This document shows positions 1-21,257 of a stretch of 64,000 bases of DNA, in pieces. The position numbers and the translations under genes were made by a program. The stretch is from Fodinibius saliphilus (GTDB taxonomy: Bacteria > Bacteroidota > Rhodothermia > Balneolales > Balneolaceae): NCBI RefSeq assembly GCF_005869845.1, contig NZ_VAWF01000002.1, positions 1-64,000 of the forward strand, read 5' to 3'. How positions within the stretch are numbered: the first letter of the stretch is position 1; each line of letters opens with the position of its first letter. The notes under the pieces were generated by a model. It saw only the letters and a program-made list of their open reading frames with translations. It searched no databases and had not been told where the DNA came from.

Positions 1-157
1 ACCCGGCCGAGTCATCTTCCGCACGGTTAATCCGCTTACCTGTTGACATCTTCAACTGGTTTTCGGACATCTCCTTATTAATTCTGTTCAGGGATAGCTG
101 GGAATCCAGCGATTGTATGTTTGTATTCACCCTGTTTAAATCTCCAAAACTTGCCAT
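1..157 (-). CDS. fliC: Flagellin, N-terminal fragment (cut by window edge)
   Basis: The reverse complement from 157 reads about 52 residues starting MASFGDLNRVNTNIQSLDSQ and continuing to GKRINRAEDDSAG. This is the conserved N-terminal D0/D1 helix of flagellin, the filament subunit exported by the flagellar type III system. The characteristic 'LS.G.RIN.A.DD.AG' block is present. A good Shine-Dalgarno (GGAGAA) lies 7 nt before the ATG, and a sigma28-type promoter lies about 60 nt upstream (217-243). The rest of the gene continues beyond position 1, so length and number of flagellin copies cannot be judged. It lies directly downstream of the glycosylation genes, which suggests it is their acceptor. 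Confidence 0.9.
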   Translation of the reverse strand, partial: MASFGDLNRVNTNIQSLDSQLSLNRINKEMSENQLKMSTGKRINRAEDDSAG

Positions 158-494: not shown

Positions 495-1490
495 TTAGCT
501 GAGTTCAACTATCTTTTTCAGAATTGCATCAATGACCAACGCTTCATATTTCTCAGCCGAACCTTCATCTTCTACCGTAAATACCTCCCTTATTGACGCT
601 CTCGTATTTCTAAAATTTGGGATATTTAAAGAAGGCAAAGAAGTTATCTCATCATCAAACAAGTTGACCCCATATTCATCCTGCAACCATTCTAAACTTT
701 CACGATGGTTTTCCTGAATTACTGCCTTTACTCCTGGCTTAAGATTAGGCCTGGTAGTAAAGGAGGGATTGATATGATGCAAAACATCTAAATTAGATTT
801 GAATTCATTTTCCCGGCCCGGATATATGATCCGTTGTATCTTTTCCAGCAATAACATCTGTTCCAAAGATAATGACACATTACTTTTTTTACTCGGAACA
901 GATAATCGATTAAAATCTATACCTATTTTTTCACATAAAGCTTCACAAGAATCTACCATACGTTCATAAGCTATAACCTCTACATCACAAAATGAGCTCC
1001 ACGTCTCAATTACCTTTCTAAATTGATATTGAAACTCCTGGGGGGAAGTAAGAAATGATCGTGCCTTTAACATTTGTTGCTGACCTGACCGATAAAATGC
1101 TGCTGGTTCTCGTATGAATACATACACTATTATTTTGTCAAAGAAACGGTTTAAATAATCTATATAGTTACGAACATAATCTTCATTAGAAATGAAAAGA
1201 TATTCTGTAGAAACAATATAATCTTCAGAGTCTGATTCAAAATCACTCTCCATTGCAGAAACATAATTTCCCACTTGATTCCGCAATTTATTTCCATCAA
1301 GTGACTTAAATTGTCGCGGCCAATCCTCAGCCGGGGCTTGAGTTGCAAAAAACGAGAAATGATGATTTACTTCGCCTCCCGGATAATCATATCCCAATTG
1401 ATTTAAAGTATTTCGATTCTGAAATAGTGTATCCTGTATAGATGTTGTTCCCGTTTTATAGGAACCAATATGCAAATGTACTGTCTTCAT
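495..1490 (-). CDS. Sulfotransferase family protein (flagellin-adjacent)
   Basis: 331 residues. The N-terminus carries VHLHIGSYKTGTTSIQ (about 4-19), the 5'-phosphosulfate-binding loop (GxxKTGTTxxQ) of PAPS-dependent sulfotransferases. Around residue 125 a strand followed by REPAAFYRS resembles the 3'-phosphate-binding RxPxxxxxS segment. The family transfers sulfate from PAPS to sugar or other hydroxyls in the cytoplasm. It is the last gene of the glycosylation run and the one nearest flagellin, 24 nt after the previous sulfotransferase gene. I infer that it sulfates the flagellin glycan or a precursor; the acceptor is unknown. No signal peptide or membrane segment is visible. Confidence 0.75.
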   Translation of the reverse strand: MKTVHLHIGSYKTGTTSIQDTLFQNRNTLNQLGYDYPGGEVNHHFSFFATQAPAEDWPRQFKSLDGNKLRNQVGNYVSAMESDFESDSEDYIVSTEYLFISNEDYVRNYIDYLNRFFDKIIVYVFIREPAAFYRSGQQQMLKARSFLTSPQEFQYQFRKVIETWSSFCDVEVIAYERMVDSCEALCEKIGIDFNRLSVPSKKSNVSLSLEQMLLLEKIQRIIYPGRENEFKSNLDVLHHINPSFTTRPNLKPGVKAVIQENHRESLEWLQDEYGVNLFDDEITSLPSLNIPNFRNTRASIREVFTVEDEGSAEKYEALVIDAILKKIVELS

Positions 1491-1513
1491 TTTCTTACTA
1501 AAATCGAACCAAA

Positions 1514-2569
1514 TTAAAAATCATATGAATGAGGTAACGAAACACCGAATGCCTTAAGGTTTTCGTTAGATTGTTGATAAAGCTTCTTAAGCTTATCCAT
1601 AAAAAAAGAGTCTGCATAGTAATCGATTGTTCGCAGCTCCTCGGTATGCGTACGCGCCGCTATTCTCGCCTCATCAATTGATGTTCGTTTATTTAATAAG
1701 CCTGCATGCAGAGTCTTCGGTAATGGTACTTGCAGATCGTTATTAAAATATGAAGCCATTCGGTGTCCATTTACGACACTATAAACGGAACGTCCCAAAT
1801 CATGCGTCCGTTTTTTGTTCAACTGCATTTTGTACTGCAACTCCTGACCATTTAATGGTCGATTATGGTGGTTCAACTCTAGCTCTTCAAATTGCAATTC
1901 CAACGCATCACACAACCATTTTATAAGAAGGGTATTACCCTGTTCACCTTTTTTGAGGCTTCCATCATCAGCTCGAACTTCTTCAATCGGTAAAACCTTT
2001 ACATTTTCTTTTCCAAAAAGCCGGCTATATAGTTTTACCGTTTGATCATAGCAAAAATCGAGGGCAAAATTTCGATCTTGGTAATAAAAGGTATATTCAA
2101 TGAAATCCTGAAATGTATGGGGATACCCAATTTTAATAACCTCTCGATAGAGACTGCGAAGAAGATCCATCTGATTACGAATCACCATTATAATGGTAGT
2201 ATCGGTATCAAATATTTCTTCCAGGCGCCGTGCTTTAGTGTGGCTGTCAACATGATCCGGTGAAAATTTAAATGATAACAGTTCACCCGATATCCCAATT
2301 GCCTGTTTATCGTGTTCAGACTGCTTTTCGACAGATTGCATATAATCAGTTATAACCTGCTTACTGTAATCCCGGACTTCTTCATATTTCCGCTCATTGG
2401 CATAGAGCAGGTAATCTTCACAAATCATATTGATCTCATCATCCACATAACCGATGTTAGATCCTACCCCAACACCTAAATGATGAATTTGGGGATGTTT
2501 GCAAAAGAAGTCTCGCTGCAGCGTAGTCGATAAATTTTTAGGATATCCAATATGTATATATTTTCGCAT
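1514..2569 (-). CDS. Sulfotransferase-like protein
   Basis: 351 residues, starting MRKYIHIGYPKNLSTTLQRDFF. The G-P-K-STTLQ pattern is a recognisable but divergent PAPS-binding loop, with the usual KTGTT replaced by KNLSTT. A following beta strand and IRNQMDLLRSLY (about 130-142) resemble the 3'-phosphate-binding motif. It is related to, but clearly divergent from, the neighbouring 331-residue protein, so this may be an old duplication with a different acceptor. It lies in a tight minus-strand run: 11 nt after the propeller-protein gene and 24 nt before the next sulfotransferase gene. A role in sulfating the flagellin glycan is inferred from position. Confidence 0.65.
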   Translation of the reverse strand: MRKYIHIGYPKNLSTTLQRDFFCKHPQIHHLGVGVGSNIGYVDDEINMICEDYLLYANERKYEEVRDYSKQVITDYMQSVEKQSEHDKQAIGISGELLSFKFSPDHVDSHTKARRLEEIFDTDTTIIMVIRNQMDLLRSLYREVIKIGYPHTFQDFIEYTFYYQDRNFALDFCYDQTVKLYSRLFGKENVKVLPIEEVRADDGSLKKGEQGNTLLIKWLCDALELQFEELELNHHNRPLNGQELQYKMQLNKKRTHDLGRSVYSVVNGHRMASYFNNDLQVPLPKTLHAGLLNKRTSIDEARIAARTHTEELRTIDYYADSFFMDKLKKLYQQSNENLKAFGVSLPHSYDF

Positions 2570-3515: not shown

Positions 3516-4175
3516 TTAATACACTTCGTAACTTGGTTTTGAACCTTTCCGCTTCGCAGGGTTACCCACATAAATGCCCCACTCTTCGGTCTCTTGTGAA
3601 ACAAGACTAGCCCCCATTGCCAAGAGCGTACCCTTACGAATGGTAGAGTAATCTCTTATAGATGCATTAACTCCAAAAAAGCAATTGGATTCAATTACAC
3701 AATGTCCCGACATCACTACATGCGAAGTGAAGAAAACATGGTCTTTAATTTCACCGTGATGACCAATATGGTTTCCACTCCATAGTACTACATTATTTCC
3801 AATCTTAGTGAAAGGCTGTAAGGTATTATCTTCAAGGATAAAACAGTTTTCTCCTATATCGTTATCACAGAATGACGCACGTGAACTTAAATACGTTACA
3901 TAGTCATATCCTTTTTCTTTGCCTTCCAAGTATACATTCTCCCGGTTCCTATTCATATTGCGAGCTGTCATAGGAGCAAAAAGTTGAAATTTTGAAGGAG
4001 AAAAATAGTCATTAACATTCTCGAAAGGCACTACCGGCAATCCCCGGAACTCCTCTTCTTCCATATACTCTTCGTGAACTGTAAATCCCACTACATCATG
4101 ATAAGAATCATTTTGTAGATAATAATGAGCCAGTTCGGCCGTATCTCGTAAACCGAACACTACTACTTTAGCCAT
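3516..4175 (-). CDS. NeuD/PglD-like sugar O-/N-acyltransferase (left-handed beta-helix)
   Basis: 219 residues. The N-terminal part (MAKVVVFGLRDTAELAHYYL) is a small Rossmann-like PglD_N domain. From about residue 100 hexapeptide-repeat coils follow (IGENCFILEDNTLQPFTKIGNNVVLWSGNHIGHHGEI), and the tail GNPAKRKG is typical of acetyl-CoA-dependent LbH acyltransferases. The GNHIGHHG segment supplies the catalytic histidine. The family acylates amino groups or hydroxyls of nucleotide sugars such as those made by PglD/NeuD. With the DegT aminotransferase upstream in the same run, it probably acylates an amino sugar destined for flagellin. It is separated from the preceding gene by about 100 nt containing an imperfect hairpin. 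Confidence 0.75.
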   Translation of the reverse strand: MAKVVVFGLRDTAELAHYYLQNDSYHDVVGFTVHEEYMEEEEFRGLPVVPFENVNDYFSPSKFQLFAPMTARNMNRNRENVYLEGKEKGYDYVTYLSSRASFCDNDIGENCFILEDNTLQPFTKIGNNVVLWSGNHIGHHGEIKDHVFFTSHVVMSGHCVIESNCFFGVNASIRDYSTIRKGTLLAMGASLVSQETEEWGIYVGNPAKRKGSKPSYEVY

Positions 4176-4275: not shown

Positions 4276-7020
4276 CTACTTTATATGGTTGGTGATTATT
4301 TCAATCAGACGTTGTGCCTGTTTTTCTACGGTGAATGAATCTCGTACAATCTGTCGGCCTCTATCAGCCTTAGCCTGCACCTTCTCCCAATCATCAGTAA
4401 AATATTTTATTAGTGAATCTTTTTGCTGCCTAATAAGTCCAATAGCCTCACTGCCAAAGGTTTCTTCAAGAGCAGGATTATAATCAGATACTACAAAGCA
4501 GCCGTTAGCCATGCCACTGCGCACTCTGCCGTGGATCGTATCCGGGTAAGTAGGATTGCAATTTAATACCACCTTGGACTGGGAATACAAACGTTCAAGC
4601 TCAGATATTTCTACTTCATTAACCCAACTGATATTCTTCATATCTTTCAAAAAAGGAAGAACTGTTCCTATTTTAGGGTGGGCCGTAATGGTGATATTAA
4701 GTTCATCTGGTAAGGCCGGCAACATTTTAAGCATTTGCAGGCGTCGTTTTTTTCGGATAGTCCAGTCAACTAAACTTAGAACTTTTAACCAACACTTGTC
4801 TTCATTTGTTTTGGGATTTTTAAAAATATAACGAGAACCGTATCCTTGATTATATATGCGTTGAAATATTTGATATATGGATTCTTCATAGTTATGCAGA
4901 GCTGCTTTAAAAAGCTCCATACCAATTTCTAATGCAGGCTTCCCAATCACCTTTAGCTTCTCATCCAGCGTTCGTTGGTTTCGGTAAAATTTATGAATGC
5001 CCCAAGGAATCAAAAGATCAATCGGGCGCTCTGACAAGGGGGCAATGGCCTCTACTACTCCATCTTTCGGTGAAGGTGGTGGGGGGTGTTCAGATAGCAG
5101 GATGTTATTATTACTTTCAAAAATCTCCTCATATTCCTCTTTCACAGAAGGTAAAGGGGAAACCAAAGTAGCATTTCCCAGCTGTTCCATTCTGTGCCAC
5201 ATAAATTCGGTGTAGGGATGATCTCCCAACAAACCGAATACCGGAACATCTAGTAGCTCAAACAGGTTACCCGTGACATTAAGCTGAGAACTTACGGAAA
5301 GGTCATACCCCATAATGCCGGTATAAAAAACATGGCCTTCATTATTAGAGGCTTCAACAACTTTCTGAACAAATTCAGGGCTTTTTCCGGAGATCACGCT
5401 AACCCCAATACCTTGACGCTCAATTTCAGCAGCCAATTTATGAGTTCGGGCTTTATGAATACCGTGTGCCCCTCCTTGTACTCCCGGTACAGTTAGATAA
5501 ATATGAGACAACACCGAGTTTTGTTGGTCATCCACCAATCGACCATTTCTATTAATGGACAACTTTGACTCTTTTTCATTCCAAAACCACCGATTTCTGT
5601 TGACATGACCAACAGCTAATCCATCCTCCTGTTCATCACTAAGCAAGTAATTCTTCTTAGCCATTAATGAAACCGCTTCAGGATTGCCTTTAAGAACTTT
5701 AATCAACTCTTTTTCCTGTTCATCACTCATATACACAGAAGCATCTTTCATAGCAATCCATGCCTCTACGGTACGTACAAAAAGCCATTTTGAAAAATCT
5801 GTTTGCACCTTTGTGTCATCCTGTTCAGGAAGTGGCGGCAAAAAGGGTAACAAGTTTCCAGTCGCTTCCTCGGCACCTACCGTTTCCATCAATCCCTTTA
5901 CCATATCAATAGCTTGGGTGCGTTTGCCCAGCTCATACATACTTCGGGCATAACTCATTGCAGCAGATATTGTACCATTTCCCTTATTAAATATTTCAAT
6001 AAGTCGCTGTGCGGCTTCTAACATCATAGCCCCTTTGCGAGATCGTGCAGAAGAATCTGCTGATACATCCGGGGATATCTGATTGGCGGCACAAAGAATA
6101 TTTAAAGCTTCCAAATATTCTTGATGCTGCTCACCGGCCATCTCACTTTCCCAATCTTCAATTTTATCCTTACTCCACCGAAAATTACCGAGCACTTCCT
6201 TCCATTTGTCTTTCCCGGGAATATCAAATGAGACCGCATCATCAAAAATCCAACCCTTCTTTTTAAACTCCTCTATACGGTCCTCGTGAATACCAACTAT
6301 ATTCATTAAATAAGGATCTTCGCCCACTTTGGGCTCATGATCTACCAATAACATGGGACCGGGGATATAATCAAACAAGTGGTACCCTGCTTCTTGTAAC
6401 TGTTCGCCTACAGCAGTTTGCAAATCCTCTTTTGCATCTAATGAAACTAATATTAAAGGATGTTCCTGACGCAACACCTGTTGAGCTCCCTTCAATGCTT
6501 TATCCTCCATCCCGTTTAAGTCAAACTTAATTACATCCACAGAACAATTACCTACATAATTCCACCACGCATCCAATGTGGTAATCGAGATAGGTTCTTT
6601 CCCTTTCTTATGTATGGTATTCTGTTCTGGTGTATCAGCAATGCGCAAACGCCCCTTCCCCACCTTTTCACCCAATGCCTTTTCAATAATTTCAAGCTGA
6701 CCAAAATTGTTTTTTTGCTTACTGCTTTCAAGATATTTACGAGTAGTAGCACTCGGTTCAAAAGCATATACCATGCCTTGGTCTCCTACCTCTCGGGCCA
6801 TAGGTAAGGAGAAAGTACCAAAAGAGGCTCCGCCGTCAACCACACTCATACCCGGTTGCAGGTATTCACGTAAAAAATCCAATTCCTGCTCAAACCAATC
6901 TTCTTGCTCTAACAATACCACCGAGGTCATCGTCTGAATATCAGCAGGCGTACATACAACAATGCCATCTTTGGTTTCTATTTGATACATATTACGCTCT
7001 GGCATAACGGGTTGACTCAT
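4276..7020 (-). CDS. FkbM methyltransferase fused to a C-terminal glycosyltransferase
   Basis: 914 residues. About 12-245 is an FkbM-type SAM-dependent methyltransferase: VVDGGASFGTFSLPMA is the SAM-binding motif I, followed by AFEPS, TTLDAWW and KFDLNGMEDKALKGA. About 255-460 is a helical region of unknown role. About 490-914 is a glycosyltransferase-like region ending with SKVVLNCNPTYPDTIHGR and a GCFVVSD segment, similar to CgeB/'glycosyl transferases group 1' C-terminal domains. The whole protein is a co-linear paralogue of the 2052-residue gene product (its residues about 780-1230 and 1640-2052) but lacks the TPR, OGT and GT2 parts. Its start is 2 nt from the wbqC-like stop. A role in building and O-methylating the flagellin glycan is inferred. 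Confidence 0.75.
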   Translation of the reverse strand: MSQPVMPERNMYQIETKDGIVVCTPADIQTMTSVVLLEQEDWFEQELDFLREYLQPGMSVVDGGASFGTFSLPMAREVGDQGMVYAFEPSATTRKYLESSKQKNNFGQLEIIEKALGEKVGKGRLRIADTPEQNTIHKKGKEPISITTLDAWWNYVGNCSVDVIKFDLNGMEDKALKGAQQVLRQEHPLILVSLDAKEDLQTAVGEQLQEAGYHLFDYIPGPMLLVDHEPKVGEDPYLMNIVGIHEDRIEEFKKKGWIFDDAVSFDIPGKDKWKEVLGNFRWSKDKIEDWESEMAGEQHQEYLEALNILCAANQISPDVSADSSARSRKGAMMLEAAQRLIEIFNKGNGTISAAMSYARSMYELGKRTQAIDMVKGLMETVGAEEATGNLLPFLPPLPEQDDTKVQTDFSKWLFVRTVEAWIAMKDASVYMSDEQEKELIKVLKGNPEAVSLMAKKNYLLSDEQEDGLAVGHVNRNRWFWNEKESKLSINRNGRLVDDQQNSVLSHIYLTVPGVQGGAHGIHKARTHKLAAEIERQGIGVSVISGKSPEFVQKVVEASNNEGHVFYTGIMGYDLSVSSQLNVTGNLFELLDVPVFGLLGDHPYTEFMWHRMEQLGNATLVSPLPSVKEEYEEIFESNNNILLSEHPPPPSPKDGVVEAIAPLSERPIDLLIPWGIHKFYRNQRTLDEKLKVIGKPALEIGMELFKAALHNYEESIYQIFQRIYNQGYGSRYIFKNPKTNEDKCWLKVLSLVDWTIRKKRRLQMLKMLPALPDELNITITAHPKIGTVLPFLKDMKNISWVNEVEISELERLYSQSKVVLNCNPTYPDTIHGRVRSGMANGCFVVSDYNPALEETFGSEAIGLIRQQKDSLIKYFTDDWEKVQAKADRGRQIVRDSFTVEKQAQRLIEIITNHIK

Positions 7021-7022
7021 TT

Positions 7023-7727
7023 TTACAGGAGTGTGAAATCATCTAGTTTTTTATTGACATCTTCTTTAGACAGATGCATCAACAGGTCCAAAATAGACAG
7101 ACCACTTATAAACTCATCTGACGACTGTTTATACGGGGTCAAAACAGGTTCTAAAAAATAAAGTTGTATACCCTTCTCAGCGAAATGCCCCTTATCATAT
7201 AATTCTTTACCACCGATTGCATTAATGTACGTATCGGCACCTTCTTTTTGGGAGATATCAATCAATCGTTCGGCTTTATCGAGCTCTCTGTTTTCAGGAT
7301 ACTCTTGAGAAGAAACCTTAAAGTCAGTGTCTAAATTCAGATATTCAGCTACTTGCTGCACCGATTCCATTGCCATATCAGCAATGGTTCTGTTTTTAGA
7401 AGATAAAACCTTTTCAAAAATAGCCTGTATTTCTTCAAACCGCTCCTTATTGTTGTAGGCATGGTAAAAAGTCTTCTTTATCTTCCGCAAATTCGGATGA
7501 CCGTAATTCACCTCAGTATCCTTAATCAAATCATTCTGACTGGGTTTTACACACGGTATTGAGAAAAGATATTTGTTTCCTTGCAATAGTATATTGTTCC
7601 TATTGATCCATCCCCTTTTTATGAAATTTACATCATCATAGAAAATGAAGGTATCTACTGCTTTAACAAGCTGAAAATACCCGACATAGGGAAAAAAATA
7701 CGGCTGCATTATAGCAATACGCTTCAC
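7023..7727 (-). CDS. WbqC-like family protein
   Basis: 234 residues with the hallmark WbqC N-terminus MKRIAIMQPYFFPYVGYFQL, then FIFYDDVNFIKRGWINRN. WbqC proteins occur in O-antigen and flagellar-glycan clusters next to DegT aminotransferases and are linked to acylation or amide formation on amino sugars; the exact chemistry is poorly defined. The gene overlaps the DegT gene by 4 bp (ATGA), so the two are probably translationally coupled and act in sequence. Cytoplasmic; no membrane segment. Confidence 0.8.
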   Translation of the reverse strand: MKRIAIMQPYFFPYVGYFQLVKAVDTFIFYDDVNFIKRGWINRNNILLQGNKYLFSIPCVKPSQNDLIKDTEVNYGHPNLRKIKKTFYHAYNNKERFEEIQAIFEKVLSSKNRTIADMAMESVQQVAEYLNLDTDFKVSSQEYPENRELDKAERLIDISQKEGADTYINAIGGKELYDKGHFAEKGIQLYFLEPVLTPYKQSSDEFISGLSILDLLMHLSKEDVNKKLDDFTLL

Positions 7728-8812
7728 GATACTTTTGCTAGTTCATACTTATTTATAATTCCAATGATCTGATCCTGCTCCTCTGCTTTTAACCCGTGAT
7801 ATAAGGGAAGACACAAAATGCGCTTTGAGATACTCTCGGCATGTGGCGCAGGTTTATACTCAACATAGTCCAGTTCATTTAAACTTGGATAAAAATATCG
7901 TCGTGGATAAATATCATTTTCTTCCAGCGACTGTTTAACATGGAGTAACCGCTCTTCATCCTCAAAGATTATAGGGAAATAAGCATAGTTAAAATGGGCT
8001 TTAGGATTGATTTTTAAACCACGCGTATTTTCATATTTTAAAAATGAGATATATCGTAACCACTGATTTTTACGCTGCTCCATTATTTCATCAATATACT
8101 TCAGATTACATAACCCCATAGCAGCATGGTATTCTGAATTTTTACCATTAATTCCTACCCCATCAAACTCTCCCGGACCATCGTGTCCGAAATTTCGAAG
8201 TCTCGATATTTTGTGATCCAATTCTGCATCAGAAGTTACAAGCCCGCCCCCTTCTGTGGTATGAAAGAGCTTTGTTGCATGAAAACTTACCACACTGATA
8301 TTTCCAAAGTGGAACACGGAATCCCCCTTATACTGCACTCCAAAACAATGGGCCGCATCATATATAACTTTTAAATTGTGCTGGTTGGCGATCTCTTCAA
8401 TTGCTTCAATGTCGCAGGGGTTCCCATAAACATGGGTAGCAACAATGCCCGTTGTCTTGGGTGTAATTGCTTCTTCAATTGCGTCGGGATTGATATTTAA
8501 TGTTTCCGGATCGATATCAACGAATACGGGTTTTGCTCCTTCCCACACAATACTACTGGTGGTTGCCACATACGAAAATGGAGTCGTTATGATCTCTCCA
8601 TCAAGCTCCAAAGCTTTTATTGCAATCTGTAAAGCCATAGTGCCATTGGAGACGAAACGCATATGGTCAACCTTCAAATAGCTTTCCAAATTTTTCTCCA
8701 AATCCTGAACAAGCGGACCGTTATTTGTTAAATACTCTCGCTTCCAAATACCTTTCAGATATTCTTCATACTCTTTTTGGGGCGGCATAAATGGTTTTGT
8801 AATAGGAATCAT
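7724..8812 (-). CDS. DegT/DnrJ/EryC1/StrS nucleotide-sugar aminotransferase
   Basis: 362 residues. This is a PLP-dependent aminotransferase that converts a keto nucleotide sugar to an amino sugar, usually with glutamate as donor. SFHATKLFHTTEGG holds the PLP-binding lysine (K181). The substrate-binding start MIPITKPFMPPQKEYEEYL and TPFSYVATTSS are typical of the family. No nucleotide-sugar dehydratase or ketoisomerase gene is present in the window, so its keto-sugar substrate must be made elsewhere. It sits 18 nt after the giant modification gene and overlaps the wbqC-like gene. Confidence 0.88.
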   Translation of the reverse strand: MIPITKPFMPPQKEYEEYLKGIWKREYLTNNGPLVQDLEKNLESYLKVDHMRFVSNGTMALQIAIKALELDGEIITTPFSYVATTSSIVWEGAKPVFVDIDPETLNINPDAIEEAITPKTTGIVATHVYGNPCDIEAIEEIANQHNLKVIYDAAHCFGVQYKGDSVFHFGNISVVSFHATKLFHTTEGGGLVTSDAELDHKISRLRNFGHDGPGEFDGVGINGKNSEYHAAMGLCNLKYIDEIMEQRKNQWLRYISFLKYENTRGLKINPKAHFNYAYFPIIFEDEERLLHVKQSLEENDIYPRRYFYPSLNELDYVEYKPAPHAESISKRILCLPLYHGLKAEEQDQIIGIINKYELAKVS

Positions 8813-8829: not shown

Positions 8830-11800
8830 TTATATTCGTTGATCCATCTCTTTTAACAATGCTTTGCTAAAATCATCCATGGTATACGTGCTATCCATGA
8901 TCTTTTTACCCTGATCAGCAATATCCTGTAAGGCCTTACTATTCTCCTTTATCAGGGTTGCTAAATCAGTTTTATCATCCAAAAACAACAGGTGTTCTCC
9001 GTGATTAAATCTCTTGGAGAGACCGGGTATCTGGTCAGTAATAAGACAACATCCCCATTTCATACTGTTTTTAACCCGCCCATGCAGGTAATCGGGATAC
9101 GTAGGATTACTATTTAGAACCACTTTTGAAATGGAATACAATCTGTCTAGATGTTGAGTAGTCACCCGCCCCTGCCAGGTAATATTCTTGTTATTGTATA
9201 TTTTCTTATATCCTTTGACCTGATCCTGATCGGCCGTAATACAAATGCTATATTGATTGGGCAAGCCCGCAAGCTGTTTTAAAATTTCGAATCGTCGCCA
9301 ATGGCGCACATGCTGATCTACGGTATGTAAAACTTTCATCCATTGATAATCAGCTTGGGTTTTTCCTTTTTTGAAAGAGTGTTTACTGCCAACAACCTCC
9401 TCATAACATTCTTGGAAAACAGAAAGCACAGAAACATCATAGACACCTTTCATCTTTTTCAACAGTAGTTTCCCCACCAATGCAAAATTGCCTCCTATCT
9501 TAGACAAAGCCTGCTTTACCATCTGAGTATTGGCATAATTGCCATTTAACGACCAGGGAACCAGGATATCTATTTCTCGGTCTTCCATTCTCATCCCTGC
9601 TTTCTTCTCGTCGATCTCGGTAATAGCAGGGAAGTAATCCATCAGAAATGACTCATTTCCTCCAGGCCCCAGCACCTCTAGCTCGTTGAGCATAGACTGT
9701 TCCTGAGCATAAAAGATCGTTTTCGATCCCATCTTCTTGAGTCGCTGCCACATAAAATCGGCAAACAAATGATCACCCAATGTGGCAAATACTTTAATAT
9801 CCAACAGGTCAAATAGATTGGCACTTTGTACGCGGTCAATTTCTACCCACGAAGGATATCCCATCGTACCGGCATGTACCGCATACCCGTCTTTTTCACT
9901 TACTTCAACAATGCGTTTCAAGAAATCCTGATCGGTGAGGTATAAAATGTCTGCAGAAATGCCCTCTTTACGAGTTTCCCCTGCCAGCATTGATGCCCTT
10001 TTGTTATGTAATCCATAGGCCATGTCTGAATTTCCGGGCGCCAAATAGATTACCTTTTCCAGATTCCTATATTTCGGCTTATCCTCCTTTTTTAACTTGC
10101 TATCATAAGTCTCCATAGAAACTTCCGGCCAGTTGTGGATAACACTATCAATGTTGGGATACATGCCATCGATTAACTTTTTTGAAACACTCAGTAATTT
10201 CCCTTTCCTATCTTGGCTTTTGGGTGACTTTATATAATCATGTCGCAATACCGCATCCGGAAAATAGATAAGCTTTTCTTTCTCATAACCTTTTTGGGCA
10301 TAACGATAGCTCAATTCCATACCTTCATGGTAAACCAACAGGCTGTCGTTCCATCCCCCTACGTCAAAAAATGCAGCCGGCGAAAAAGAAGTATTACCCT
10401 CTAAGAAACATACCGCAGACTTTGCATCTGGCCCTAAATAATAGTGACAGGGAATTTCGCTGCCTTTTGTTTTTGGTTGATACACCCCTCGTGCCACATA
10501 CAGATCGTGGTCTGCATGAATATCTTTATGGGCTTGCAACATACCTTCTTCAGGAATGCCGTCATCATCCACAAACATGAAGAGATCTCCCTTAGAAAAC
10601 AGGGCACCGAAATTTCGCGCCATGCAAGCTCCGGCATTTTGCTTCAAATGGATGACTAAGTCCACATAGTCGGCAATAGCTGCTGCTTTCTCTTTCTCAA
10701 GGCCATTATTTACAAAAATAACTTCTGTCTGCTTATCACTCTGTCGATCGATTTCTTCAAGATTTTTTATAACTTCATCATTGCCATTATTGCTGACAAC
10801 AATTACTGACAGTTCAGGAGAAATGACCTTACTATTTATTTCTACAGAATCATAGAAATAGGCATAAAGAGCCTTTTTATGCTCCCAGCTTCTTTTTTCT
10901 AAGTGAGCCCTTAACGCTTCATCAATAGGCTCAGACAGATCAGAATCGGAAGCCAATAGCGCCTTAACCATGAGAAAAAAGGCCATACTATTCGTTCCAT
11001 CCTGATCTATCTTTGCCTGACACTCTTCAACTATTGCATCTATATGTCGCGCAAATTCCCCACCATCTATTTGGGCGGCTATATCTATTGCCCATTTCCC
11101 TTTTTTGTTACTGAGCGGTGCCTGCCAAAATTCCTCAGGTATTAGCTTACCTTGATTATCCTTATTATCTCGAGGTTGTTGTTCTTTAACTACTAGGCTA
11201 TCTGTTTCGTCACTCTGTTTTGTGACGTTGTCCAACAGGACTTCTACATTAATACCAAAACTATTTTTGAACCTTTCTTTTTGATTGTTAGTTAACGCAT
11301 CACCTTTTTTCAAGGCTAATAAATCCAAACGACATGAAAACCACTCAGTCACTTCAGGATTTCCTTCAAGTACACTCAACATTTTATTTCCACCACTCAT
11401 AAATGTTGTAGGATCTTTCAACACAGCCCATGCCTCTACAATGCGGACCGTCAACCATTTTGCAAAGTCTGTCTGAATACTGGTACTATCTTGCTGTGGG
11501 AGGGGAGGTAGAAACGGGAGTTCAACTGTTATCTCATTTCCGGAATTCAGCGTCTGCATCAGCTCCTTGATCATCTCTACAGCCTGGTGTCGTTTTCCAA
11601 GTCCATTCATCAATCGCACATATGTCAACGCAGTAGCAATGCCGGCTTTTCCATTATTAAAGATCGTAATTAACTGTTTTGCAGCCGTGAGTAGCATTTT
11701 TGCCTTCAATGATCGCGAAGATGTTTCAAGCTCTTCCAACTGCTCAGCAGTACAGATCAAATTCAATGCTTTTACATATTTTGAATGTTCACCGACTGTG

Positions 11801-14800
11801 GTATTAACTTTCCAATCTGCGACCTGTTCATCCGCCCATTTCATACCGCAAAGCAGCTCTTCCCATGTCACTTGTTCTGCTGTTTCAATCTCGATATCAG
11901 CATTAAATATCAGTCCGCCATTGGCCAGTTCTTCTTCGCGATTTTCTTTAACCGCTACCAGATTCATTACATAGGGATCAATACCCGCCTCAGGCTCAAA
12001 ATCAACTAACACACCCGGGGAAGGGATATATTCATATAACTTGTACCCTTCGGATTCGAACTTCTGATTAATAGCAGAAAGAGTGTTCTCATTTTCACCC
12101 ACCGAAATAATGACAACTGGTGATGTCTCTGAAAGCATGGTATCTGCTCCTTCCAGGAGTTCTGTTTCCATGCCATTGACATCAACTTTCAACAGATCCA
12201 CTTTCGGCCGACCTTCGAAATCCCACCAGGCATCCAAGGTAGTAACAGAAATCCCTTCACCAGTTTTATCAAGAGTATTAAATTCCGGGCTTTCTGCCTG
12301 CTCCAGTTTAGCTACACCAGTCTCATCAGCAAGTCCACGCTCGATCACTTTTAACTGATCATAACCATTCACCTGCTTACTTTTGTCAAGATGTGCTCGT
12401 GCCTTATCGCCCGGCTCAAAAGCATATACAGCCCCTTTGCTCCCTACCTTTTCTGCCATTGGCAGCGCGTATACCCCGAAAGCAGCACCGGCATCAATAA
12501 CCGTCATACCGGGCTGCAAAAAATCACTCACAAAATTTAATTCATTTTCAAACCACTCTTGTTGTTCCAATAATACATAGGTAGTAAGAAGATCAAACGT
12601 GGGAGGCACACATATTGAAACTCCATCTTTGGTTTCAATACAGAAATCTTGTGTCTGCCTTCCATTTTTTTGAGCTGTTCCATTTTTAGCAAACTCCTTG
12701 GTAACACCCTCAATCTTATCAGGAACCGTTGTATTTTTAGCCGCTTGACCATTTTCTTTTGGAGCTATTGTTTCCACTTCTTCCTGGTAATCTATACCAT
12801 CGCTATCATCTTGACCATCTACTGAAATAAGCGGGGTAACCGATGGACCATCAGTCCATTGGCTAAGTTGTTCATCTGTTAATTCATCTACTGCGATATG
12901 ATCTTGCCATTCTTCAATATTTTCGTCTTGGCCGCTCAGCCACTGCTTCCACATTTCACGAAATGCTACAGCGAGATGTGCACCAAAGCGCTTGCCGTCA
13001 CAAACCGGTGAATTACTAATTTTGTCTCGCAGTGATTTTCGGATCTCAGCTAATGCAGGGAGATCTGTTGCCAATTCTACGACTTTTTCGGTGTACTCAT
13101 CCCAACTGTCTACCACCCAATCACTTAATCCGATGTTGAGCAGGTGTGTCATTGAGTGTCGTCCGGCAAAGGTAGGGCCCGGCAAAGTAATCACGGGCAC
13201 TCCCATATAAATGGCTTCACAAGTGGTTAGCCCACCCGAATAGGGCCACGGGTCAAGGGCAATATCAACCTCGCTATATGCTTCCAGATGCTCATCATGC
13301 GGGCTATGACCTTTAAAAAGCACACGATCCCCTGATATACCCTGCTCTTCTAACACTCCTCTAATATGCTCCTTCACAGAGGGCGTATCATACTGATTGC
13401 TCTTTAACAACAATCTGCTATCGGGGACCTCATTCATAATTTTTGCCCATTGCGCTAATAATCCATCATTAACTTTAGTGGGGTTATTAAAGCAGCCAAA
13501 AGTTATATACCCATTCTTTTGGGCAGGCAATGGATTCACATCTGGTGCATACGAAGGGGGCGTATAACTAATATAGTCATCTGGCAAACGGACCAACTTC
13601 TCGGTATAAAACTCTTCTTCTCCTTCCGGGGTCTCATACCAATCACTAATAAGGTAATCGAATGCAGGCAGCCCTGTGGTATTAAATAGTCCCCCCACCC
13701 ACTTAACCATAATGGGGGCAGGTTCATTAGCCATTACATCCAGGCAATTATCTGCTGCATGCCCTGAAAGATCAACTAAAATATCCAGCTCATCATCACG
13801 GAGCAGACCTTCAACAACACCGGGATCATACCCAACAATTGAACGCCACTCGTCAATATTTTTATGGATACGCTGAGTAACAAAGTCAAACTTATTATTT
13901 GTGGTATAACAATAGATCTCAAAAACATCATCGGGCAATTGCTCTAATGCACCGGCAATCATCCAACCTACAGGGTGCTGACGAAAACCACCGGAAACAA
14001 AGCCCACTTTAAGGCGCTTATCTTTTGATTTATTAGATGGCAAAGGACGCGTAGGCGCCTCTTTCGGCATAAAATCTTTTACAAGGCGTACATGCTCTTT
14101 ATAGATATGCTCTCTGCTGTTATTAGGATTATAATGCAGCCCCATCAGATAGTTGGAAATAGCTCCTTGGTTACCTGGCAAATCTTTAATTGCGCGGCGG
14201 TAATTTTTTTCTGACTCATCAAACTGGCTCAACTCTTGCAGGCAAAGAGCATAGTTCACCCTTATGATTCCATGGCCCGGCTGCTGATCTAGCAGTACCT
14301 CATAAAGCTCAACTGCTTGATCATAGTCTCCTTTGGATTTATAAAGCTCTGCTTCTGTTACCAAAATAGGAAGTTGACTACCGTGTCTTTCCTTAGCTTC
14401 CTTTATATATTTCTCGGCCTCTTCATAGCGGCCCTTTTTTTTGTTAATTTCTGCTTTCTCAAGAATAGCTCTTTTATGTCCTTCATCTAACTGGAGGGTA
14501 ATATCAAATAGCTTTAAGGCCTGCTCAAGATCTCCCTGATCTCGATATATTTCCCCGATACGAAAAGCAACACCCGAGTTTTTGGGATCTAGTTTGTTAG
14601 CCTTTGTATAACACTCTAATGCATCTTCAAGCTTAGCCTGTGCTCGGTAGATAGATCCTAAGTTCATCCACCCCTTCAGCAACTCCGGGTTTCTATTCAA
14701 AGCTTCGCGTTCGTACTGTTCAGCCTCATCAAATTGCCCCAAATGAAAACAGTTCACTGAAAGCATATGATAAGTCTCAGGAGCCTCTGATCCTTTTTCT

Positions 14801-14988
14801 ATCGCATTTTCCAAATGCTTGATAGAAGATTTGTAGCTACGGCTTTGGGATAATGCTACCCCCATCAAGTGGTGAGCCACCCACGGACATGCCCGGTTTT
14901 TTCTTAACACAGGTCGCAATTCAGCTATGGCCTGCTTAGGCTGCTCCCATTCTAAATATTTTTGGGCTTGCTTAATCTGTTTTTTCAC
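8830..14988 (-). CDS. Giant TPR - O-GlcNAc-transferase (SPINDLY) - FkbM - GT2 - GT protein
   Basis: 2052 residues, no frameshift. About 1-280: seven or so TPR units. About 325-690: GT41/SPINDLY O-GlcNAc-transferase-like catalytic domain (KVGFVSGGFRQHPVGW, DILVDLSGHAADN, ITFGCFNNPTKVND, ALDPWPYSGGLTTCEAIYMG). About 780-1020: FkbM methyltransferase (IDAGAAFGVYALPMA, KVDVNGMETELLEGA). About 1050-1240: helical region. About 1385-1600: family 2 glycosyltransferase (LSVIVVSNNG, NAGACMARNFGA, MFVDDDGIPE). About 1640-2052: CgeB-like glycosyltransferase (SKVVLNSNPTYPDYLHGR). It is the first gene after a sigma54-type promoter, and its operon leads to flagellin. The predicted role is to O-glycosylate flagellin and extend or methylate the glycan in one polypeptide. 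The OGT part recalls Listeria GmaR-type flagellin OGTs. Confidence 0.8.
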   Translation of the reverse strand: MKKQIKQAQKYLEWEQPKQAIAELRPVLRKNRACPWVAHHLMGVALSQSRSYKSSIKHLENAIEKGSEAPETYHMLSVNCFHLGQFDEAEQYEREALNRNPELLKGWMNLGSIYRAQAKLEDALECYTKANKLDPKNSGVAFRIGEIYRDQGDLEQALKLFDITLQLDEGHKRAILEKAEINKKKGRYEEAEKYIKEAKERHGSQLPILVTEAELYKSKGDYDQAVELYEVLLDQQPGHGIIRVNYALCLQELSQFDESEKNYRRAIKDLPGNQGAISNYLMGLHYNPNNSREHIYKEHVRLVKDFMPKEAPTRPLPSNKSKDKRLKVGFVSGGFRQHPVGWMIAGALEQLPDDVFEIYCYTTNNKFDFVTQRIHKNIDEWRSIVGYDPGVVEGLLRDDELDILVDLSGHAADNCLDVMANEPAPIMVKWVGGLFNTTGLPAFDYLISDWYETPEGEEEFYTEKLVRLPDDYISYTPPSYAPDVNPLPAQKNGYITFGCFNNPTKVNDGLLAQWAKIMNEVPDSRLLLKSNQYDTPSVKEHIRGVLEEQGISGDRVLFKGHSPHDEHLEAYSEVDIALDPWPYSGGLTTCEAIYMGVPVITLPGPTFAGRHSMTHLLNIGLSDWVVDSWDEYTEKVVELATDLPALAEIRKSLRDKISNSPVCDGKRFGAHLAVAFREMWKQWLSGQDENIEEWQDHIAVDELTDEQLSQWTDGPSVTPLISVDGQDDSDGIDYQEEVETIAPKENGQAAKNTTVPDKIEGVTKEFAKNGTAQKNGRQTQDFCIETKDGVSICVPPTFDLLTTYVLLEQQEWFENELNFVSDFLQPGMTVIDAGAAFGVYALPMAEKVGSKGAVYAFEPGDKARAHLDKSKQVNGYDQLKVIERGLADETGVAKLEQAESPEFNTLDKTGEGISVTTLDAWWDFEGRPKVDLLKVDVNGMETELLEGADTMLSETSPVVIISVGENENTLSAINQKFESEGYKLYEYIPSPGVLVDFEPEAGIDPYVMNLVAVKENREEELANGGLIFNADIEIETAEQVTWEELLCGMKWADEQVADWKVNTTVGEHSKYVKALNLICTAEQLEELETSSRSLKAKMLLTAAKQLITIFNNGKAGIATALTYVRLMNGLGKRHQAVEMIKELMQTLNSGNEITVELPFLPPLPQQDSTSIQTDFAKWLTVRIVEAWAVLKDPTTFMSGGNKMLSVLEGNPEVTEWFSCRLDLLALKKGDALTNNQKERFKNSFGINVEVLLDNVTKQSDETDSLVVKEQQPRDNKDNQGKLIPEEFWQAPLSNKKGKWAIDIAAQIDGGEFARHIDAIVEECQAKIDQDGTNSMAFFLMVKALLASDSDLSEPIDEALRAHLEKRSWEHKKALYAYFYDSVEINSKVISPELSVIVVSNNGNDEVIKNLEEIDRQSDKQTEVIFVNNGLEKEKAAAIADYVDLVIHLKQNAGACMARNFGALFSKGDLFMFVDDDGIPEEGMLQAHKDIHADHDLYVARGVYQPKTKGSEIPCHYYLGPDAKSAVCFLEGNTSFSPAAFFDVGGWNDSLLVYHEGMELSYRYAQKGYEKEKLIYFPDAVLRHDYIKSPKSQDRKGKLLSVSKKLIDGMYPNIDSVIHNWPEVSMETYDSKLKKEDKPKYRNLEKVIYLAPGNSDMAYGLHNKRASMLAGETRKEGISADILYLTDQDFLKRIVEVSEKDGYAVHAGTMGYPSWVEIDRVQSANLFDLLDIKVFATLGDHLFADFMWQRLKKMGSKTIFYAQEQSMLNELEVLGPGGNESFLMDYFPAITEIDEKKAGMRMEDREIDILVPWSLNGNYANTQMVKQALSKIGGNFALVGKLLLKKMKGVYDVSVLSVFQECYEEVVGSKHSFKKGKTQADYQWMKVLHTVDQHVRHWRRFEILKQLAGLPNQYSICITADQDQVKGYKKIYNNKNITWQGRVTTQHLDRLYSISKVVLNSNPTYPDYLHGRVKNSMKWGCCLITDQIPGLSKRFNHGEHLLFLDDKTDLATLIKENSKALQDIADQGKKIMDSTYTMDDFSKALLKEMDQRI

Positions 14989-15581: not shown

Positions 15582-15908
15582 ATGCAAAACCCACAGAAAG
15601 TATATGAGCGACAAGCAGTTCTAAATGCCTCCCCTCTAAGGTTGGTGGTAAAATTGTATGACTTAGTACTGCAAGCTACATATCGGAAAGATGGAGAACG
15701 TGCCAAAGAAGTACTTTCAACACTTATTGAAAGCTTAAACTTTGACCATGAACCAGCCGATGAACTTTTTGAACTTTACAGGTACTGCCAAGATTTGGCA
15801 CGACAAGAAGAGTTTACAGAAATAAGAGAAATATTGGAACCTCTACGAGATGCTTGGGACACTGCTGCCAATGATGAGCAGGCGGATCCCAAAAATGCAA
15901 ATGCCTAG
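15582..15908 (+). CDS. fliS: Flagellin export chaperone FliS
   Basis: 108 residues. FliS binds the C-terminal helix of flagellin in the cytoplasm, prevents premature assembly and delivers it to the export gate. The N-terminus (YERQAVLNASPLRLVVKLYDLVL) matches the FliS helical bundle with its 'Y...V..ASP..LV..LYD' signature; length is slightly below the usual 120-140. The start ATG has no clear Shine-Dalgarno but lies 50 nt after a good sigma28 promoter. First gene of the fliS-fliD-fliT-like-flgM-like run. Confidence 0.88.
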   Translation: MQNPQKVYERQAVLNASPLRLVVKLYDLVLQATYRKDGERAKEVLSTLIESLNFDHEPADELFELYRYCQDLARQEEFTEIREILEPLRDAWDTAANDEQADPKNANA

Positions 15909-19904: not shown

Positions 19905-21257
19905 CTAAACTATATTAGCAACCATACTTTTGGCTTTATCCAGCCTGTTTGTTTTGGTAAGTGTTACTATCAACCTACGCTTGTATGTACTATCTTCGGG
20001 GTAAGCATTATGTAGTTTGGTATATACCTGCGAAACATATTCATGCCATTTCCTACTCATGAACAGCGTCATGATCTCTTCCAACTCCTCGCGGCCTTGG
20101 GCATCCAGCTTGTCAGGCAATTTATCGCCAAACATACGCTCAAAAAGATATACCGAACGCTCATAATCATCCAGTTCTACCGACATCACCAATACCTTTT
20201 TTAGTAATGACCGGTCGATATCACCGCGTTTAAAAGAAAACAGATTTTCAAAATAACCAGCTGCTGCTTTTCGATCCCCGCTTTTTAAGGCCACATTAGC
20301 CAAACTAACCAAGGTCTTTTCTTCATCGATATTACGATCAAAGTTAGCGCGAGAATATAACGAAAACCGTCGGTAGTATTGGCTCAACGTTTCGTGTGCC
20401 TTACCCCACTCTTTTTTAAGTTCAAAAATTCGATACTTAATAAGATAGGGTAAACTTTGCAGCGACTCTGCTTTCAGTGACTCTTCGGCCAAAGTCATAG
20501 CATTCGTCCATTTGTGCTGCTCTGTCAAACAACTCGCAAGACCATTAACAGCTGCCAACCGGTCGTACGGCAGAAGCTTTTCCATCTTCAATAACTGTCG
20601 ATACTGTGCAGCTGCTCGCACATATTTTTTCTCGTTAAAATACCGTTCTCCTTGTACCAAGTATAATTTGGGCGAGTATTCTTTTACGGATAACTCTTCA
20701 TCAATATCAATATGACTGATAGGGTTGCTTTCCCGTTCAATAATAATAGGATGATTGGAAAGCTCAATATCATGTCCCCGTATATACTGTGTTGAATCGG
20801 GCAAGTTTCGGCCTGAAAAAATGTTAGATCCATTATTCGCCGCTGCATTAATCAAACGCATCTGGTAAAACTGACGACTGCGGTCCTCTTTTTCTTGGCG
20901 AATGAGGGTAGGCGTCCATGTCCGATCACTCAAGGAATGCTTATCTGGGAAGCTACTCAATCGTACAGTCTCATCATCTTCAACAAAGAGCACCCAGTTT
21001 TTTCGCACTTTATCAAGTATTGTATTCCAAACTTCTGAACGTACACTTTCCTCTTCATAACGGTACCAATCAATACCATCCGTGATCTCTTCAGGGCGCT
21101 CGGCTTTGCCAGCTACCGTCACATGCGCAAACTGCTCAGCCCACTGCGACAGCTTTCTATTATCGAGATATGACATATCAGACAAAAACAAAACAACTTC
21201 TGCCCACTCCATACCGCTATTTCCTTGAGGTGCTACTGGTGCAAGTTCATTATTCAT
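19905..21257 (-). CDS. TPR protein with a possible degenerate glycosyltransferase-like N-terminus
   Basis: 450 residues. From about 190 the protein is helical with TPR-like repeats (LYLVQGERYFNEKKYVRAAAQYRQL, VALKSGDRKAAAGYFENLF). The N-terminal 130 residues contain a strand-rich segment with NWVLFVEDDETV, resembling the acidic metal-binding strand of GT2 enzymes, and a YEEESVRSEVWN helix. I do not recognise a named family. It follows flgL by 61 nt on the same strand, so it is likely expressed with the hook-filament junction genes. A link to filament modification or assembly is a guess from context and from the TPR content of the glycosylation enzyme. Confidence 0.5.
   Translation of the reverse strand: MNNELAPVAPQGNSGMEWAEVVLFLSDMSYLDNRKLSQWAEQFAHVTVAGKAERPEEITDGIDWYRYEEESVRSEVWNTILDKVRKNWVLFVEDDETVRLSSFPDKHSLSDRTWTPTLIRQEKEDRSRQFYQMRLINAAANNGSNIFSGRNLPDSTQYIRGHDIELSNHPIIIERESNPISHIDIDEELSVKEYSPKLYLVQGERYFNEKKYVRAAAQYRQLLKMEKLLPYDRLAAVNGLASCLTEQHKWTNAMTLAEESLKAESLQSLPYLIKYRIFELKKEWGKAHETLSQYYRRFSLYSRANFDRNIDEEKTLVSLANVALKSGDRKAAAGYFENLFSFKRGDIDRSLLKKVLVMSVELDDYERSVYLFERMFGDKLPDKLDAQGREELEEIMTLFMSRKWHEYVSQVYTKLHNAYPEDSTYKRRLIVTLTKTNRLDKAKSMVANIV

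Follow-up and report, generated by a model that had tools for sequence, protein, structure and literature searches.

Modification of flagellin by proteins that join a TPR arm to a glycosyltransferase (GT) is already known from Caulobacter, where the TPR arm of the flagellin O-glycosyltransferase FlmG binds flagellin and the fused GT domain glycosylates it (PMC7591256). Fusions of GT41 enzymes to methyltransferase domains are likewise known from enterobacterial flagellin islands, in which GlcNAc derivatives were inferred and the GTs of any one strain's island were reported to belong to a single family (De Maayer & Cowan 2016, PMC4875605). In Listeria, GmaR is built from a short N-terminal GT domain of ~180 residues, followed by TPR and an antirepressor domain (PMC9638930). 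Among GT41 enzymes, whose donors are poorly known in bacteria, the Arabidopsis protein O-fucosyltransferase SPINDLY (PDB 7y4i, 8dtf) is a nucleocytoplasmic plant protein. The 2052-aa protein described here, encoded in a 64,000-nucleotide stretch of DNA from the salt-loving bacterium Fodinibius saliphilus (contig NZ_VAWF01000002.1, positions 1 to 64,000; referred to as the window), is an unusually modular version of these known arrangements.

With FlmG it shares the TPR arm, a C-terminal GT domain and a gene encoded together with flagella, and it is predicted to be, like FlmG, cytoplasmic and dedicated to flagellin; FlmG, however, consists of two domains only and uses a pseudaminic acid donor. 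The enterobacterial island enzymes, by the description given in the paper, also fuse a SPINDLY-type GT41 to a SAM methyltransferase but lack a GT2/GT-B tail, and a range of exchangeable tails is not described for them (PMC4875605). These fusions, reported in 2016, had been overlooked by the original prediction, which compared the protein with GmaR. That comparison proved weak: both combine a glycosyltransferase with TPR, and the action on flagellin that is known for GmaR is predicted here, but GmaR has its short GT domain ahead of the TPR, a different domain order, and lacks both a methyltransferase and a second GT. Aeromonas Fgi-1 was also considered as a precedent and rejected, being a GT2 enzyme of ~320 aa and not multi-domain. 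Neither the five-part protein nor the swappable tails were found described in the open-access literature searched, and the claim that this order is undescribed holds within those papers.

The gene (8830..14988, minus strand) runs from a GTG start at 14988 to a stop at 8830 with zero internal stops, and encodes, in order, TPR, a SPINDLY-type GT41, an FkbM methyltransferase, a helical region, a GT2 and a C-terminal GT-B (GT4-like) domain. The TPR region (14119..14988, minus; residues ~1-290) resembles solved TPR proteins and matches Pfam TPR families above curated cut-offs at residues ~7-271, and the GT41 catalytic domain (12919..14058, minus; residues ~311-690) matches PF13844 over residues ~315-670 (1e-36, 126.8 bits against a curated cut-off of 25). 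The FkbM-type SAM methyltransferase domain (12034..12636, minus; residues ~785-985) bears the motifs DAGAAFG, FEPG and KVDVNGME and lies above cut-off for PF05050 and TIGR01444 (PF05050 at residues 832-984, 1.4e-13), with FkbM 2py6 as the best PDB match of the FkbM part of its AF2 model. The adjoining stretch between FkbM and GT2 (11314..12033, minus; residues ~986-1225), to which no function is assigned, is modelled as all-helical and gave no Pfam family in the scans. The tail comprises a GT2 (GT-A) domain (10129..10833, minus; residues ~1386-1620) with a DxD motif (VDDDG) and a PF00535 match above cut-off (residues 1394-1496, 9.5e-12), followed by the GT-B domain (8833..10083, minus; residues 1636-2052) with a PF13524 match at residues 1914-2044 (8.4e-16, 58.7 bits against a cut-off of 25). 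An AF2 model of the C-terminal 417 residues has a GT-B fold (pLDDT 83.7) with Foldseek matches to BshA/GT4 enzymes; in the AlphaFold model of the FkbM-helical-GT2 stretch the first two parts are good and the GT2 part is poor, for which a shallow alignment is the probable reason.

The single continuous frame, the five joined domains (TPR, GT41, FkbM, GT2 and PF13524, all above Pfam cut-offs) and all the motifs quoted in the original prediction were thus borne out, and the same architecture was found in other genomes: F. halophilus carries a full-length homologue at 79% identity and a second genome of the same genus (G011) one at 60%, both homologues being 2068 aa. Since two other Fodinibius genomes carry the full-length protein, a fusion created by assembly or frameshift is ruled out. 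Comparison with F. halophilus gives dN/dS values of ~0.07-0.18 for the GT41, FkbM, helical, GT2 and GT-B domains, against 0.29-0.41 for the linkers; for the TPR region, where dS is saturated, pN is only 0.11.

Comparison across the order adds what the original description, correct as to the five parts, had missed: a conserved unit of ~1220 residues to which the GT2/GT-B half is attached as one of several tails. This core (residues 1-~1220) is present, whole or in part, in 22/59 Balneolales relatives, the count being of relatives with the TPR-GT41 start, most of which also have the FkbM and helical parts up to ~1220; some copies are short or interrupted where a contig ends (G012, G033). Pairwise comparison of homologues places a sharp junction at residue ~1215-1250: close relatives with the same tail keep high identity throughout, whereas in those with different tails identity is mostly 60-90% and drops to background past the junction. 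The GT2 + GT-B tail of the window's protein recurs in the two full-length homologues; other genomes carry GT-B only (G006, G030, G036), a second FkbM (G001, G002, G003, G008, G040, G056), GT2 + methyltransferase (G005, G010), GT2 + an unidentified part (G028), an APH-like kinase + weak methyltransferase (G039), methyltransferase + kinase-like (G041), weak kinase-like (G038) or GT56 (G020). In G032 core and tail are two adjoining genes on the minus strand (locus L037, 11920-16538), encoding 975 aa and a 561-aa TPR-GT56 protein that has its own TPR arm. A class-wide search of 245 genomes returned matches confined to the order, with further tails of GT56 (G067), GT2 (G069) and a weakly GT4-like type (G122), and some copies of just TPR-GT41 (~700 aa) or TPR-GT41-FkbM (982 aa).

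Mapping the tail types onto a tree built from residues 1-690 requires three or more changes for each of two labels, second FkbM and GT-B. Synonymous divergence from F. halophilus is lower in the tail (0.57-0.90) than in the core (1.15-2.1), which would fit an exchange of the tail on its own or, alternatively, differing codon constraint. The fixed core with exchangeable tails is a more interesting fact than the five-part order itself, and a first half kept among relatives with a swapped second half suggests built-in variation of the flagellar coat.

The GT41 domain had originally been called an O-GlcNAc transferase, and under this alternative the protein would be the same flagellin modifier using UDP-GlcNAc. 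Membership of the GT41 family and the GlcNAc derivatives that De Maayer & Cowan infer for island GT41 enzymes (PMC4875605) speak for it, and the catalytic Lys (OGT K842/SPINDLY K665) and conserved His (OGT H558/SPINDLY H495) are kept as K505 and H338. The residues that set specificity in the SPINDLY papers (K689, A731 and Y744, versus L866, R904 and C917 of OGT; PMC10027727, PMC9715652) point the other way. In the alignment of homologues H338, K505, K529, Y583 and E591 are invariant in 22/22, so that the base-binding K689 and the fucose-contacting Y744 of SPINDLY are matched by K529 and Y583 in place of the OGT Leu and Cys, while the A731 position is A570 here and A/K/H/E/S/T across homologues, never Arg. 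The best PDB match is SPINDLY, with which the order TPR then GT41 is shared. The OGT Leu/Arg/Cys set is accordingly not kept, and a true O-GlcNAc transferase is considered unlikely.

The likeness to SPINDLY has its own limits: the plant enzyme is without FkbM, GT2 and GT-B, its A731 varies among the bacterial relatives, and its T747/T748 are not kept, the positions being G586/L587 here. With its SPINDLY-like pocket residues and an A731 position that is never Arg, a GDP-sugar is the better guess for the GT41 donor than UDP-GlcNAc, as judged from sequence. The gmd gene of the GDP-fucose route scores above cut-off in the genome itself, but is absent from 11/22 core-carrying genomes, including F. 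halophilus; fucose is therefore not assured, and GDP-fucose is not supported as a universal donor. CMP-pseudaminic acid is unlikely because the NeuB synthase family is absent from the Fodinibius genome, as it is from 15/22 core-carrying genomes.

A flagellar role of the protein, as originally predicted, is well supported by the genomic setting. The predicted sigma54 promoter was located at 15051-15037 (minus strand) as a -24/-12 site (TGGCAC-N5-TTGC, TGGCACTTTATTTGC) that starts ~63 bases upstream of the GTG, and many homologues have a similar site at about -45 to -70; no sigma70 promoter or terminator was found near the gene. Divergent from it, starting at 15582, lies fliS-fliD, and at 21/21 loci examined in 21 genomes fliD lies no more than 5 kb from the homologue, which in 20/21 is divergent from the fliS-fliD side. 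The core occurs in 21/27 FlhA-positive versus 1/32 FlhA-negative genomes (Fisher p ~1e-9, kinship ignored), and the lone FlhA-negative carrier is an 84%-complete MAG that nevertheless has fliS and fliD. Six FlhA-positive genomes are without the core, which is therefore not essential for flagella.

The original placement next to flagellin holds loosely: the flagellin gene starts ~8.7 kb downstream (157 to 1, minus), beyond seven same-strand genes that are mostly sugar-related or uncharacterised. Immediately downstream, on the minus strand, are genes for a DegT/DnrJ/EryC1/StrS aminotransferase (7724..8812) and a WbqC-like protein (7023..7727), followed by a 914-aa paralogue (4276..7020) composed of FkbM, helical and GT-B parts without TPR-GT41. 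The GT-B part of this paralogue has motifs common to the GT-B-only tails of other genomes and missing from the tail of the 2052-aa protein. Beyond it, also on the minus strand, lie a hexapeptide-repeat acyltransferase (3516..4175; putatively PglD/NeuD-like), two sulfotransferase-like genes (495..2569), of which 1514-2569 matches Sulfotransfer_1 weakly, below threshold, and 495-1490 has no Pfam match, and the 5' end of the flagellin gene (1..157), which is cut by the contig end. The break inside this gene was probably caused by repeats; the start of another contig (C3) holds a flagellin part, and relatives have several flagellin genes at the locus.

Taken together, these features make it likely that the 2052-aa protein is a cytoplasmic, flagellum-dedicated multi-enzyme with a core platform that attaches and methylates and a tail that can be exchanged. 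Briefly, flagellin awaiting export would be bound by the TPR arm, as happens with Caulobacter FlmG, and O-glycosylated on Ser/Thr by the SPINDLY-type GT41, probably from a GDP-activated sugar, not UDP-GlcNAc. Methylation of this sugar may then fall to the FkbM domain, and the tail, with its GT2 and GT-B domains, may attach more sugars that the neighbouring DegT, WbqC, acyltransferase, sulfotransferase-like and 914-aa FkbM-GT-B proteins make or trim; such a sequence of attaching, extending and capping is presumed from the domains. On this scheme residues 1-~1220 would form the fixed platform, and a swap of tail would make the flagellar glycan differ between species.

Whether flagellin is the target bears on this scheme, and fliS and fliD, not flagellin, are the nearest genes. 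On Azospirillum plasmids (L069, L070; NZ_CP029835.1, NC_016588.1), moreover, separate but adjacent genes for TPR-GT41, FkbM, GDP-L-fucose synthase and GT4 form an unfused version of a similar set, the GT41-FkbM stretch being alignable over 94-97% of the query at ~28% identity, and this set lies beside type I secretion genes rather than flagellar ones. The core might on these grounds modify another flagellar-locus or surface protein (hook, cap or secreted); with flagellin genes downstream here and in the loci checked by Pfam, and with FlmG as a precedent, such a target is judged quite improbable. The Azospirillum set also adjoins a large hypothetical protein and is perhaps a secreted glycoprotein pathway.

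A second doubt concerns the tails, which vary independently of the core, and the third gene downstream, read in the same direction, encodes the 914-aa FkbM-GT-B paralogue without GT41. Tail domains acting elsewhere, on surface polysaccharide, and fused only for co-regulation would account for both observations. In every case, however, the tail follows the same flagellum-tied core, and the GT2 + GT-B type is under purifying selection by dN/dS against F. halophilus, which leaves this possibility with little probability; action of the tail on the flagellin-bound glycan is the preferred reading.

Extended to the whole order, this reading tentatively suggests a flagellin-glycosylation 'assembly line', in which cassettes (GT2+GT-B, GT-B, FkbM, GT2+methyltransferase, kinase-like, GT56) may have been recombined onto the TPR-GT41-FkbM platform at one junction and may thereby diversify the coat, by analogy with module exchange in polyketide synthases. 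If true, the make-up of a flagellar glycan could be read from the domain order of one protein, and the natural tail swaps would be ready-made experiments that tie the exchange of one cassette to a predicted change of the glycan. The protein would also provide a bacterial SPINDLY-type enzyme with a directly testable donor. Elsewhere in the window, a conserved 450-aa protein with weak TPR matches (19905-21257, minus) adjoins flgL, as it does in relatives.
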